From assembly GCA_026184775.1 (NCBI GenBank), contig JANCYW010000012.1, positions 1 to 64,000 on the forward strand: 64,000 bases of DNA, in the 5' to 3' direction. Made by a program: the position numbers and the translations under genes. The DNA is from Cyanidium caldarium. Its lineage: Eukaryota; Rhodophyta; Bangiophyceae; Cyanidiales; Cyanidiaceae. Positions 37,143 to 45,031 of the stretch are shown in pieces (positions within the stretch are counted from its first letter, which is position 1; each line of letters opens with the position of its first letter). The notes under the pieces were generated by a model. It was not told the origin of the DNA, searched no databases, and saw only the letters and a program-made list of their open reading frames with translations.

Positions 37143-38675
37143 TCACCCTCCCCGTTCGTCTCGCACCCGCTCCAGGCGAGCAGCTTCGCGGGCACGCATT
37201 CGAGACCAGCGCTCGAGTGTTAGAGCCTCTTCTCGATGCGCCCGCGCCTCTAGGGACGCGAGGCGCAGCCACCGCTGCAGTGTGCCCGGTTCGCATATGT
37301 CTGGATGGTCGCGGCGCTCCTGCACGTAGTCGCGTTCGATGTGCTGTGCCATGGCGTCGTCGATGCGCGGCCAGGGTGCACGTTGTAAATGCGCCAGCAC
37401 CGCTCGGCACCGCGCATCCACGGGCACGTCAAGTGCCTGGTCGGGTGACAGTGGTGGCAGCGGGAGGCGCACATCGGCGACGCTCAGCGCGTTTTGGCTG
37501 CTGGCCAGCAGGCCGCGTCCACAGGTTATGAGAATGAGGGGGATATCCACCTCCACGCGGACGCCGCTGGTATAGTCGTACTGGTAGCGCACCGTCTGGT
37601 CGCGCACCAGTTCCAACAAGGCACGCACATTACGAACGCCGACTTCGTTCAGCTGCCCGCCGTTCTCCTCGAGCGTCGTCTCGTCCAGCACCACGAGCGT
37701 GCCACGCGGCAGCTGCAGCGGTGCCCTCTCCAGCCGGTTGGTACCGTAATCTTTGCGTGGCGTCCATTCGCGCGCATTCAACGCCGTCACCGACACCTCC
37801 AGGGCGACGCAACGCGGCGCCAGCGCCTGCAAGCCTTGCGTCAGCCAATGAGCCGTGTGCCGCGCCACGGTCCGCGGCGTCGACGGCGGCAGCGACAGAT
37901 GCAGCGAGCACCGGCTGGCCGGCGGCGACGCGCTCGAGGACAACAGCGTCAGCAGGAGGTAATGCGCCAGCAGCGGGTCGTTTTGCGGCAGCATCGGCGC
38001 CAGGGCCTTGTGCACCAGAAACGCATAAGCGTCGGTGGACGGGGACGCGTCCTCGTCGTTCTCGCCGGCATCCACTGGAGCATTCCACTTCGCATGCGTG
38101 CCGTGACGCACGCATACACGCCAGTGCCTCACGTGAATGCATGGCAGGCGGGCCCACACGTCCATCAAACCATCCGTTTCGGTTGCGTGCTCATCGAGTT
38201 CGGCAGTCGGGGAGGAGAGCACGCCGACGACTTCCACAATATCGTTCAGCGAGCGCACCCAATCATCGGCGCCCGGGAAGCACGCCACGACTTCAGAGAG
38301 TGCACGCGAGGCGGCGCTGGCGCCGTTCGTGAGGGCGTGTCCGTTGGCCGCCGTCTCCGTCTGCCTGCCACGATCCACCAAACTCCTCTCCCGTTCTCCC
38401 TCACCGGGCACGGGCACCAACACCACGGGAGTTTGCTCGAGCCACGCTTCGTCTCCCGCCCCGCGCAGGTACTGAGTCGGTCCGACGTCTTGCACCATGC
38501 CACGGCAGCGCACCAACCGCGCATCCGCATCGAGGGAGCCGGCGCTCGGCGTCGACTGCGCCGAGTCGCAAGCCCACGGCGGCAGGACGTCGCAAGTCTC
38601 CAAGCGCAACTGTCCCATGAAAGAAGTGTTGCCCTTGTGAGGGCTGACGTCCCTCGTTGGCGAATGGAGTGTCAT
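37143..38675 (-). CDS. MCMBP: MCM-binding protein (MCMBP/ETG1)
   Basis: 510 residues of the MCMBP family, which binds MCM3-7 in place of MCM2 and supports MCM complex assembly and unloading during replication. Matches: VRCRGMVQDVGPTQYL, IVEVVGVLSSP, HYLLLTLLSS, the Arg/Thr-rich region around LVVLDETTLEENGGQL (a Walker-B-like segment of a degenerate AAA fold), VDIPLILITCGRGLL, and the helical end with REEALTLERWSRM. Low-complexity inserts separate the blocks. The ATG at 38675 keeps the family-like opening; 38720 is an alternative. It is head-to-head with the PRONE gene, and a perfect E2F-type site lies 57 bases upstream. Confidence 0.85.
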   Translation of the reverse strand: MTLHSPTRDVSPHKGNTSFMGQLRLETCDVLPPWACDSAQSTPSAGSLDADARLVRCRGMVQDVGPTQYLRGAGDEAWLEQTPVVLVPVPGEGERERSLVDRGRQTETAANGHALTNGASAASRALSEVVACFPGADDWVRSLNDIVEVVGVLSSPTAELDEHATETDGLMDVWARLPCIHVRHWRVCVRHGTHAKWNAPVDAGENDEDASPSTDAYAFLVHKALAPMLPQNDPLLAHYLLLTLLSSSASPPASRCSLHLSLPPSTPRTVARHTAHWLTQGLQALAPRCVALEVSVTALNAREWTPRKDYGTNRLERAPLQLPRGTLVVLDETTLEENGGQLNEVGVRNVRALLELVRDQTVRYQYDYTSGVRVEVDIPLILITCGRGLLASSQNALSVADVRLPLPPLSPDQALDVPVDARCRAVLAHLQRAPWPRIDDAMAQHIERDYVQERRDHPDICEPGTLQRWLRLASLEARAHREEALTLERWSRMRAREAARLERVRDERGG

Positions 38676-39133
38676 GCCGCGGCGAGTGGAGGACAGCGGG
38701 CAACGGCGCTCTGTTGGCATCGGCGACGCGATTCCCGCCAAAATCGGTCGGCAACCCCGCTCCCGAAGCCGTGGCTCCCGGTGTGCTTCCGCGTCCATTG
38801 CCCTGTGTATTGCAGTGCATAGGAAGAGGGCTCATGACGCAGGCATTTTCGTGTATGCTCTGCAATGCCTCTGCACCCTCATGCTGTGCTTTCTTCTCTC
38901 CACGAGCACGCCACCCTGTGAGACCCTCTGGCGACTTCGCTGTCGACCCGTATCACACCCCTCCCCGGTTCCCAGCGGCCTCCCAGCCACTCCTCACCTC
39001 CTTTCCCCGCCAAATTGTAACGGTCACCCTGGCGGACACGCGTCGTGCAGCGAAACGCCGGACGAGGCGGCGCGGCTGCGGAAACGGTTCTCCGATTCTG
39101 CGGTTCTCGGTTCACGGCCTTTTCAAACCGCTC
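38676..39133. other. divergent intergenic region, MCMBP / PRONE genes
   Basis: 458 bases. Apart from the E2F-type site no feature is supported. The frame of the downstream gene is open through most of it but without coding character. Confidence 0.6.
38732..38742 (-). promoter_or_regulatory. E2F/DP-type site TTTGGCGGGAA
   Basis: The minus strand reads TTTGGCGGGAA, the full E2F consensus, 57 bases upstream of the MCMBP ATG and 392 upstream of the PRONE gene's. An 11-base exact match is expected by chance about 0.03 times in 64 kb on both strands at equal base frequencies. MCM-related genes are classic E2F targets in plants and animals, and cyanidiophytes have an E2F/RB pathway, so function is plausible. 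Confidence 0.6.
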
Positions 39134-41739
39134 ATGGCCACACCGACCAAAACTGGGTCGGGGCTGCCACCGCGCACGCCACGATCAACCCAGCAGGAGA
39201 TGAGTGCTGCTCTCGCCAGCACCGACAGTGACCGATCCGGCCGCGAACCGACCCGCGGCAGCTCCACCACCACGCCGACCCGCGCGGGCGAGCCACGACG
39301 GTACTCCACGGCGTTCCGGCAGGGCACCGTGCAGCCGCCAGGAAAACTAGAGTCGGCACGGGCATCGGTGGTGCTAGCGCGGCTACTGGCGGAGGATGCG
39401 GCGGCGGCAGAGGCGCGCGAGGCGTACGAGGCCGCCTACGAGCGGTACTTTGCGTCGGTGGATGCGTTGTTCCGTGCGGTGAGCGCCCTGGATGAGCACA
39501 ACGAGGCCAACGAGCTGGCGGCCATCCGCGCAGCGCCCGTCAGCCCCACGGCACTGGAGGTGGACGAGGAGGCCGTGACGCTGCGCGAGGTGTGCAACAC
39601 CCAGATCGAGGCGTTGATCGCCCGCTGCGAGGCACTGCGTGAGTTTATGTACGAACAGACCGCGGCGACGACGGCCGCAGCCTCCGACGCTTCCGCATCG
39701 GATCGCTCGGGCAGCGATGCTGCCGATCAGGACGGCGACGGTCATAGCAGCGGATGGACGGACAGCGGTGCACCGGCAGCGGTGGCCGCCGCACGCGTGC
39801 GCCGGCGATGTTCCGAGCGCGACAGCGGCGACGCGGCGGTGAGCCAAGACTTGCGCGCGCGCTTCGAGGCCTGTCGCTTAATGCAGAGCGAGCTCGAGCG
39901 CAGCCGCTCGGCCGCCTGGGCCATCGCCGCCACCTACGATGGGCGCGCTGCCGGCGAGACCGCCGCACTGCCCGCCGCCAGCAAACCTGAACGCCGCGCC
40001 GAAGGCGACAAGGAAAACCAGGCGAGTGCGCCGTGCAGCCCTGCTCGGCCCGACGAGACCACCACGTTGCCGGACACGACGGCCGACAGCCACGGCAGCT
40101 CCCATCATGACAGTATGCGCGCCAAGACGCTCATTCAACAGGAGCTGGCGCGCCGCTTCACCGAAATGCGCACCGCCGCCCACCCCGCCGAGGTGCAAGC
40201 GCTTGCCGGCGAGACGGCGACAGCGCCCGCTCGCCGGGCCGCCGCCTACGAGGAGACTTTCGACACCACCTTCTCCTCGACCTACCACTCCAACCAATCG
40301 TCGCTGACGCGCTCGCGTTACGAGGCCATGAAGGAGCGCATCGCCATCATGAAGGAGCGCCTGGGCAAAATCGTGCTCGCCGGCAGCTCGCCCGCCACCT
40401 ACACCGACGGCACCCTGACCATACCCTCGTCGTCGGCATCGTCGCTGGGCACGCCCACCCCACGCATCTCCGGCAATCGCCGCAGCCGCAGCCGCGGAAG
40501 CAGCAGCGGCGCTGCCTGCACCTCCCCTGATGCCACCGGCGCCGCCTCCAACGCGCTGCAACTCAGCCACGCCATCACCAATCTGCACGCCGGCACTTTT
40601 GGCGAGTTCAAACGGCTGGAGCCGCTGCCGACCGCCGCCGCCTCCAAGTGGAGCATCGAGATCGACTTTCTGCTCTCGCCGTGCGAGCAGATCATCATCC
40701 GGGTGCCCGGCACCCGCTCGCTGCCCGATGGCCGCCAGGTGGAGGTGCTGGAGAATCGCCTGCGGCCCGATATCGACGAGTTTCTGCCCAAGCTGCGCGG
40801 CATGGACGCGGCCATGCGCGACATGCTCAAATCGTTTCGCGAGCTGCGCCAGCTGGTGCAGTATGGAGCGGAGCTCGGCGACACCACCGCGACGACGATG
40901 ACGACAACGACGTCGTCCGAGCCGAGCGCCGCCAAATGGTGGCTGGATCGGCCGCGGGTACCGTCCGGCGGATTGCCGCCCGGCGTGCAGGCGCTGCTGC
41001 GGCGCACCTGGCACGAGGCCAACGACATCCGCCAGATGGCCCGCAGCATCAACGATCGCGTGTTGCGCTCCATACCGCTGCCGGAGCGCGAGTACTCACG
41101 GCACTGCTTCGGACTCGACATCACCGAAACGTCCACGTCCGCACTGGCCGCGCTCACCCGCCGCTCCGTCGAGCGCGAGCCCCGCGTGCGCGACATCCTC
41201 CCGCCGGACCTCTACGCCGCCGTCACCAGCGATGCCAACTTTAGCGCAGTCACATATGCGCGCCAGGCGGTGTTGCGGCTCGACGAGCACGCACCGCTGC
41301 CGTCGTGGGATGACGAGTCCGCCAACGCGCGCCTCACCGATCTGGCGGAGCGGTTGGAGCGCGCCGAGTTTGTGTATTGCGTCAAAATCGACAAACACAC
41401 CGGCCGACACCGTTTCGGCACGCCCTGGAAGCGGAACAAGCTCGAGACGTACTACGCCGCCCGACGGCGGTGCAAACGCGGCGCGCACGCCCTGCGCGAA
41501 TCGTTCCCGGGCATCAGCCAGACGTCGCGCGACCAGACGCGCATCCGCTTCAATCGCGACGTCGGCACCGCGGTCTTGGAGGCGTACTCGCGGGTGTTGG
41601 AGGCGCGCGCCGCCGCCGTCGCCAGCCGCGTGGCCCTGGTGCTGGAGGCCGATCGGCGCGAGACCGGCACCCAGCGCAACAGTTCCGCCCGCGGCGCCGG
41701 CCTCGTCCTCAGCGCCGCGAGACACTCGCCGAACACCAT

Positions 41740-41790
<51 letters not shown>

Positions 41791-41869
41791 CTCCCAAGAG
41801 CCGTCCGCCTGGCGCCGCCGCTGGTGGACGCTCGTCGACGACAAACGCACCGACCACGAAACGCTCTAG
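39134..41869 (+). CDS. PRONE-domain protein (RopGEF-type Rho GTPase exchange factor)
   Basis: 911 residues. About residues 398-840 align by eye, block by block, with the plant PRONE domain that activates ROP GTPases. The blocks are YEAMKERIAIMKERLGKIV, LSHAITNLHAGTFGEFKRLE, EVLENRLRPDIDEFLPKL, LRGMDAAMRDMLKSF, AKWWLDRPRVPSGGLPPGVQ (the WW region), MARSINDRVLRSIPLPE, LRESFPGISQTSRDQTRIRF and NRDVGTAVLEAYSRVLEARA. A low-complexity insert of ~70 residues follows the first block and another precedes the WW block. The N-terminal ~390 residues are disordered with two coiled-coil-like helices. The C-terminus carries Pro and Ser runs from CCG/TCG repeats. The ATG at 39134 follows the divergent promoter. 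The substrate would be a Rho/Rac-type GTPase. Confidence 0.85.
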
Positions 41870-41879
41870 AGCGCACCTC

Positions 41880-43970
41880 TCACCGGGCGCGCATACTGCC
41901 GCCACCTCGATTCCGCAAACACGTCTCGTACATATTCGCATCCAGCCGTAGCAACAGCGCCTGCAACTGCTGCGTCAGCTGCTGCACTCGGCCCTCCCAG
42001 TGGTGTGCGTTGATGCGGATGGCGCGTACCAGCGGCGGATACGTCCGTTGCGGATGCCGCAGCAGCGCGCCGCGACACCAAGACACATTGCGCGGCGGTC
42101 GATACCTGGCGCCGGCCGTGCCGCGCCGCGCAGACGCCGCCACCGCATTGGCACTGGCGCGCACACTCCAGTCGGATATCGCCCCCGCCTCGGTTATCAA
42201 CGACGCACCCATCGATACCAGATTCGGCGCGGATCGCTCCTCCCCCTCCTCCTCGTCGTCGTCGTCGTCGTTGTCGTCATCGTCCTGATCCAGCAGCAGC
42301 GCCAACGACTCCTCGGCAATGTCCCGGTGCGGCGAGGTGACGCAGCCGGCCAGGCGACGAAACACCGCCGCCACAAACGCCGCCTCGTCGTGGTCGACAT
42401 CGACCGCCCCATCACTGCCCGGTCGTCGCCAGCGTCGTCGACGGGAACCGTCGGGCAGTGCCGTCACCCCCGCACGACACCCCCGACACACCTCCAACAG
42501 CAGCGCCATCTCCTCCAGATACTGCGACTCCTTGCGGCAGTTGGTGCGCGGCCAGTGCCGCAACAGAAACCACACCGTGGTGCGCGCCAGCTCCGGCTCC
42601 CGATCGGCAAACTGCAACGCACACTCGCTCAGCTCGCGCGCATACACCACATACCCCCGCGGTGCATGCAATGGCAACAGCGCCTGCACATAGAACAGCG
42701 TATTCTCCGGTTTCAACGGCCGCGACAGTCCGCGCGCGATCAGCTGCAACACCTGCAGCAGATCCGGCAGGCCGCGCACCCATCCGGCATGCGCCACGGT
42801 GTCAAAGCGGTACGGCAGGCAGATGTCGCGGCGGATGCGATCGCGGATGAGCGCGCGCAGATCGCGGAACCGCGCGTACAGCCGATGCAGACACGCCTTG
42901 ACGTATTCGCGCTCGTACGGCGGGGTGTTGAAGAGGCGCAATACGGCGGGCACCAGTTGTTGCCACAGATCGACGCGTTCACGCGACGCCAGCGTCACGA
43001 CGGCAGCGTTGCGTTGTTGGCGCACGTCGGTGTCGGTGCGTTCCGGGTCCAGATACTCCAGCAGAAGCGTGTACACGGCCTCGGTGTGGGGCCACAGCGG
43101 GTCGGCGGCGTTTCCCTGGGGATCGGATTGGTTGCTGTTGGCGCCGTTGGCGACGGCCGTGGGAGTGAACACGCTGCGGCCGCTGTGATGGCTGTGGCAT
43201 TCCAGCGAGCTCAGCTCCACATCGTCATCCGCCAGGCTCCAGTACTCGTCGGCGGACATTGGGGGCGGGTCGCGGCGTGCCAGGTGATTGTACACCAGCA
43301 CGGTGACCGCTCGGTAGATGCGGGCGTTGGGCGCGAGTGCGTCGGTGCAGGCCTCGACCCACTCCACCAGTTCTAGTAGGGCGTCCAGGCGCGTCTGTCG
43401 TTGGGCGCGGGCGGACGGCGATGTGTCCCATCGGGTGATGGGCGTGGCGCACGATTCCAGCTGCACCAGAAACTCGTCGCTGTTGCGGATGCCGCTGCGG
43501 CGGCGCGGAGACACGCTGGCACCGGTGTCCGACGAGGAGTGGGAGCGGCGGGAGGAGGAGCGCGACCGCCGATCCAGCATCGGCTGCGGCAGCAGGGAGC
43601 GACCGCGGTTCGCGGCGACCGCGGTCGTCGCCAGACGTTGTTGCTGTTGCTGTCGTTGCGCCTGCCACGCCGGCAGGTTGTCGATGTCCACCCCGGCATC
43701 TGCCAGTTTCGGGTGTCGCGCCGTCGCCTCATCGCCCACGTCCAGACGCAGATCGATGCGCCGGCGCCAGCGTCCCCAGCCGTCTGGCGCCGGCGCATTC
43801 GTGGCGGAAGGAGATGCGGTCGCGGTGTCGTCTCCCGGCAGTTGCGCCTCCGCCGCTGCTACCACTGCTGCCGGTGCCAAGAAACGCTCCTCCAAGCGTG
43901 AGCGACGGGCGCTGCTGCGGTCATCGGGCACCGCCGCCGCCACATGCCGCAGTGGGCTGGTGGTCACCGA

Positions 43971-44003
<33 letters not shown>

Positions 44004-44525
44004 TTCGCTCTCGGACTCGGAGGCGCTCAACGACGCCGGCCACTGCGGTGAGGCACTCCGCACCATCCGTAACGATCGCTCCAGATGCCGTGAAGAAGTT
44101 GCCGCCACGTCCGCATCATCTTGGTACGCCTCGTCGGCCGTAGAGTCCGAGGATGCCGACGACTCTTCCCAGTCGTTCTCGTGGTCCACCACCGTCAGCC
44201 GATCCAGCGCGGTCACCGCGTGGTACGACGGCGGCGCCGGCGGCAACACCGGTGGCGGCAGCAGTCGCCGCTCGCTCTTCGTCTCCGCGCCCGCTAGTGC
44301 ATTCTGAGAACGCCCGTCTCTTCCCGTGGCAGCGGCAGCAGCAGCAGCAGCAGCAGTGGGCGCCGGAGCACCGGACGACCCGGCGGCCGTCGGAGTGCCG
44401 GCCCCGGACCCGCGACCCCACTTGCTGTGGGCGCTCTTCCCGCCGGACGCCTGCCCACCGCCCTTGCCTGGCCTGCCCGAACCCTCCTTGCCGCCTTTTC
44501 GACCCCGTCCAAACAACCGAAACAT
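41880..44525 (-). CDS. PP2A regulatory subunit B56 (B'), second divergent paralogue
   Basis: 881 residues. B56 superhelix from about 475 to the end: PLWPHTEAVYTLLLEYL, RLFNTPPYEREYVKACLHRL, YARFRDLRALIRDRIRRD, PLKPENTLFYVQALLPLHAP, RGYVVYARELSECALQF and RHWPRTNCRKESQYLEEM. An Asp run (DDDDNDDDDDEEE) lies in the last third. The N-terminal ~470 residues are disordered and basic at first (MFRLFGRGRKGGKEG), with Ala and Asp runs. The last helices are degenerate compared with the gene at 33170, so this copy may bind substrate differently. Its start is a proper ATG; its stop is 10 bases from the PRONE stop. Confidence 0.82.
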
Positions 44526-45031
44526 GGCCCTTATGCTCTCTCCATGACGTCGGCCCTGAAAGGTTGTTGACGGAAAAACCGAGACACGGCAATAGCGTTG
44601 GCCGATAGCGACACGTCAGACTCTCTCCCAAAGGGTCCACCGAGGAAATATACCCGTAACGACACAATGAGCGAGGGAGAAGGCAGGATGAATCGTTACG
44701 GAGGCAAGGTGGGTGATCGAGCGAGTGCCGGTGAAGCGCCAGGGTGATGGCGGATACGGGTGTGTGGTGTGCGAGAACCTCCTCTCCGGGTTCGACCTCG
44801 TAGAATTCGTTCATCATTATGTGCCCAAGCACACGCACTCTCTCCCACATTTCCTCCAACACCATTTCTGGTCGTTCGCTTCTCTCCGGCATCACCCCTG
44901 TGCTCCCTTCCTATTTTCTACTCGACCAGATTCACCGGGACAGCGCGCGCCGGCGCGTTCGAACAGCGCGGAGACCGTTTTTGCGTTGACGGACACTTGT
45001 GGTCGCGGGGGTACCGCCTCGGCCGACCACA
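44526..45031. other. divergent intergenic region, B56 / four-TM genes
   Basis: 506 bases between two start codons. No gene, tRNA or repeat is supported. Confidence 0.6.

Follow-up and report, generated by a model that had tools for sequence, protein, structure and literature searches.

The window analyzed in this study (positions 1 to 64,000 of contig JANCYW010000012.1 from the red alga Cyanidium caldarium, assembly GCA_026184775.1) carries a gene for a 911-aa protein that we confirm as a real relative of the plant PRONE proteins, the activators of Rho-type polarity switches. In our judgment, the gene was probably inherited vertically, and its product is probably a guanine nucleotide exchange factor (GEF) of the PRONE family with an N-terminal MIT-like three-helix domain. 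Since rhodophyte PRONE proteins are in print, the presence of PRONE in a red alga was already known. The gene's own contribution is the combination of MIT-like and PRONE domains, which structural models and sequence comparisons suggest is conserved in Cyanidiales.

The PRONE domain

The Pfam PRONE profile (PF03759) matched the protein with an E value of 1.4e-55 and 189.1 bits, far above the curated cut-off of 27, and RopGEF8 of Arabidopsis (2ntx, E 4.7e-37) was the sole PDB sequence matched at E values up to 1. The AlphaFold2 model predicts a PRONE fold over residues 401-849, where it matches the RopGEF8 structures 2ntx and 2nty. A PRONE domain had been recognized in a preliminary description of this DNA, made from the letters alone, and both the profile search and the structure prediction bear it out. 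The tryptophan pair W602 W603, which has a catalytic role in PRONE domains, was kept in all 13 aligned proteins.

Common to the window protein and RopGEF8 (2ntx, 2nty, 2wbl) are the Pfam PRONE match, the predicted fold, the tryptophan pair and tails of low model confidence. The window protein differs from RopGEF8 by its MIT-like N-terminal domain and by insertions, one following the first helix and one preceding the tryptophan pair. Its start coincides with that of one of its relatives, P0002. When the genome was searched with the PRONE profile, the only matches were the two halves of the window gene, and no second PRONE was seen. Another Pfam family, Mito_fiss_reg, matched residues 747-889 under its cut-off (E 0.00068; 20.3 bits versus 26.3), most likely due to the poly-Pro tail.

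The N-terminal MIT-like domain

Several lines of evidence suggest that the N-terminal three-helix region is related to MIT domains: Pfam MIT (PF04212) was listed for all five sequences that bear the N-terminus, albeit with 8.9-16.1 bits, below the curated cut-off of 30, and it was the top match of the isolated N-terminal piece; of the six best Foldseek rows, four are chains with MIT in the title and two are Vps4 chains 82-83 residues long, and 17 of the 50 VIA rows name MIT or MITD1 in their titles; and the hhalign score of 21.97, from an alignment to helix 2 of the Vps4 MIT domain, exceeded those of all 200 column shuffles (maximum 19.7). The modelled region resembles the MIT domains of Vps4, spartin, spastin and MITD1 in its three-helix arrangement, its length and the sequence pattern of helix 2. 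It differs from them by a longer loop before helix 3 and by scoring under the Pfam cut-off.

This region might instead have no relation to MIT and form a three-helix bundle or a coiled coil that serves, for example, dimerization or membrane binding, its likeness to MIT reflecting a common helical arrangement. We regard this as a serious possibility, albeit not the probable one, since the family, fold and shuffle results above all speak against it. Three observations, however, slightly lower our confidence in an MIT relationship: a second family was nearly tied with Pfam MIT in the N-terminal search; the five AlphaFold2 models of the region show spread; and the window gene was not listed in a genome-wide MIT search at E values up to 10, in which 3 candidates were scored. 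Phmmer with the N-terminal piece against the PDB, again at E values up to 10, returned 3 sequences, none of them MIT. With Vps4 from this genome as the BLASTP query, pieces within the MIT region had E values of 0.076 and 0.49, and a match outside it had 0.066. A search of NCBIfam gave no match. A limited literature search found no report of an MIT domain joined to PRONE in red algae, though such a report may exist, and the passages on rhodophyte PRONE proteins in PMC12445832 make no mention of domain architecture or of an MIT-like domain.

Relatives and origin of the gene

The protein database search, in which (as in each protein search) the approximately 8,000 candidates with the most words in common were scored, yielded 13 proteins: the window's own, five of Cyanidiales type, and seven others. 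One of the five is 94% identical to the window protein and four are 59-61% identical; one is named Cyanidiococcus yangmingshanensis. The seven remaining PRONE proteins are only 27-30% identical, and six of them bear land-plant names. The same six Cyanidiales-type proteins, and nothing else, came back when a Cyanidiales profile served as the query. PRONE proteins of Galdieria or of multicellular red algae were not seen among the named matches from the scored candidates, which proves no absence.

The preliminary description stated that PRONE is usually described as specific to green plants, a view that is out of date: rhodophyte PRONE, reported in a figure legend of PMC12445832, and a suggested origin in the red-green ancestor are in print, and a 2024 review (PMC11194304) mentions PRONE-like proteins in other Archaeplastida lineages on the basis of Elias 2008 and of Mulvey and Dolan 2023. 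As far as these sources go (PMC12445832; Elias 2008), the window protein is a member of the same family from the same phylum. Of the two origins that had been offered for the fold, one preceding the red-green split is therefore already published, and the window gene confirms it, while the other, transfer, fares poorly as discussed below.

Candidate GTPase partners

If the protein is an exchange factor, a Rho/Rac-type GTPase would be looked for in the same genome, as the preliminary description had proposed. The Ras-family search gave 20 matches, two of which, L010 (C18:171846) and L012 (C8:144901), were taken as Rho-type by reading their sequences; among the Ras-family matches, the PDB comparison covered these two alone. 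L010 is of Rac type: its scores reach 224.8 bits with Rac1 chains, compared with 209.0 for the ROP in the PRONE complex 2nty. It retains AGQE and the P-loop lysine, has a CAAX-like ending (CTIQ), and its insert aligns gap-free to Rac1. It reads SYWKA, not SYRGA. L012 (L012:1483-2181) is a second, divergent Rho-family GTPase with DCAGQH in switch II and a CAAX-like end, CTVQ.

The ROP subfamily is marked, according to the relevant passage of PMC12445832, by the SYRGA motif and a 12-aa insert. As neither L010 nor L012 has SYRGA, the window protein is not a RopGEF in the strict sense, i.e., one acting on a ROP with SYRGA and the 12-aa Rho insert. In contrast to plant RopGEFs, its likely partner is a Rac-type GTPase without that motif, and the origin of PRONE-ROP specificity thus becomes testable by partner swaps. 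Cyanidioschyzon merolae is a genetically tractable relative.

As for other Rho regulators, the genome has one DH-type RhoGEF (L025) and two RhoGAP matches, one of which (L024) has an upstream part that, by sequence reading, resembles an inositol 5-phosphatase (OCRL-like). DOCK exchange factors and RhoGDI gave no match in the genome searches, which had no working control, and their absence is not thereby established.

Alternative explanations

Horizontal transfer, with a green plant or alga as the donor, might be considered because the named non-Cyanidiales matches (six of the seven) are all from land plants. However, the Cyanidiales sequences form a tight group, far from the plant proteins and with an N-terminal domain of their own, and the published distribution of PRONE, as far as given in PMC12445832, includes rhodophytes. 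Transfer is thus highly improbable; we rejected it on the pattern of pairwise identities. Alternatively, the PRONE domain could have degenerated into a scaffold, binding a GTPase but catalyzing no exchange, with the DH-type RhoGEF L025 doing the work. The presence of L025, the insertions and the 27-30% identity to plant proteins would fit this idea. However, all 13 aligned proteins agree at core positions, among them the tryptophan pair, and identity to the relative P0005 is 60-75% in the PRONE segments versus 36% in the linker, making a scaffold quite unlikely.

Somewhat less remote, though still unlikely, is that the substrate is not L010 but the divergent L012 or a Ras-type protein such as L011. 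L010 lacks the ROP motif, and L012 belongs to the Rho family, has a CAAX-like ending, and finds its best PDB match in the ROP (ARAC2) of the PRONE complex, essentially tied with Rac1 (136.9 versus 136.4 bits). Exchange factors usually contact the switch II Glu position, however, and in L012 a His replaces the Glu after AGQ, whereas L010 retains it.

Proposed mechanism

With L010 as the partner, the PRONE domain, probably a dimer as is RopGEF8 (a homodimer according to PMC12043234), would bind the GDP form of the GTPase and open its nucleotide site, allowing GTP to take the place of GDP. Exchange on a Rac-type GTPase is predicted because such activity is family knowledge (PMC6767298). Less certainly, the cellular site of exchange may then be set by the MIT-like domain together with the disordered linkers.

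The usual ligands of MIT domains are the tails of proteins of the endosomal sorting complex required for transport III (ESCRT-III), and ESCRT-III-coated membranes would be the most likely, although less certain, site. The genome has seven Snf7-family matches as possible MIT ligands, just one with an exact MIM1-like ending by pattern match. It also encodes a Vps4 whose MIT domain is clear. In C. merolae, ESCRT-III, ALIX and VPS4 are reported at the intercellular bridge, and abscission is blocked by a VPS4 mutant (PMC7169423). Together with an MIT-like domain on a RhoGEF, this means that Rho activation could sit at scission sites. The fuller proposal, that Cyanidiales activate their Rho switch through a PRONE factor docked directly on ESCRT-III via its N-terminal MIT domain, placing Rac activation at the cytokinetic scission site, is tentative, and we think it more doubtful than not. 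If true, it would provide a direct Rho-ESCRT link within a single polypeptide. The architecture conserved in Cyanidiales suggests a working site for the exchange factor. Haploid division in these algae is described as F-actin-independent in a 2026 paper (PMC13353863).

Gene features and genome setting

The features of the gene and its neighbors are listed in Table 1. Approximately 335 bases separate the PRONE gene from the divergent gene for the MCM-binding protein, and a possible cell-division role had been read from this bidirectional promoter shared with a replication gene. The genome comprises 8,787,356 bases in 20 contigs (window, ~66% GC), and the published C. caldarium 063 E5 assembly is given as 8.79 Mb, 20 chromosomes, 65.7% GC and 4,870 proteins (PMC9812998). 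At such a gene density divergent neighbors are expected, so the argument for a shared function is weak. The MIT-like domain, absent from the preliminary description, is a better, though still indirect, pointer to a connection with membrane scission and division.

Table 1. Positions in the window of the PRONE gene, its parts and the adjacent genes
Feature	Position	Strand	Basis or remarks
MCM-binding protein (replisome factor), divergent neighbor	37143..38798	-	PF09739, E 1e-54
PRONE-family RhoGEF gene	39134..41869	+	One open frame, 911 aa, no internal stop
N-terminal MIT-like three-helix domain	39344..39700 (residues 71-189; helices 71-94, 98-132, 145-189)	+	AlphaFold2, fold matches, weak Pfam MIT, conservation
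Less conserved linker	39701..40297 (residues 190-388)	+	Mostly low model confidence
Counterpart of first PRONE helix	40298..40378 (residues 389-415)	+	An insertion sets it off from the remaining domain; model confidence low (34-62)
Low-complexity Ser/Thr/Arg-rich insertion	40379..40540 (residues 416-469)	+	Model and conservation
PRONE core	40541..41683 (residues 470-850)	+	Pfam PF03759; PDB 2ntx/2nty
Thr/Ser-rich stretch	40868..40930 (residues 579-599)	+	Also present in P0002, mostly absent from P0003-P0006; differs from plant residues here
Tryptophan pair W602 W603	40937..40942	+	Alignment of 13 proteins
Poly-Pro/poly-Ser tract, C-terminal tail	41741..41794	+	
Protein phosphatase 2A B56 regulatory subunit, convergent neighbor	41880..44615 (stop to stop)	-	PF01603, E 6.8e-51

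The genome searches gave nine actin-family matches in seven places and a myosin, located at L041:903-6326 on the minus strand (C10:213402-218825). Its open frame of 1808 aa contains a nearly whole motor domain, which covers positions 2-641 of the 679 in the Myosin_head profile (E 9.8e-128) and matches PDB myosins with E values from 9.7e-78. It has the motifs GVSGAGKT and LEAFGNA and, further on, a second P-loop-like motif, GVTEGVGKS. This frame contradicts a statement in PMC13353863 that the C. caldarium genome has no myosin gene; the assembly in that paper is from NIES-551, whereas the genome used here matches 063 E5. The myosin bears on the working of the actin ring in C. caldarium.

The window starts at a chromosome end: positions 1-423 hold a telomere-like array of approximately 17 copies of the unit CCCCCCCATT, followed by approximately nine copies of a 29-base repeat.
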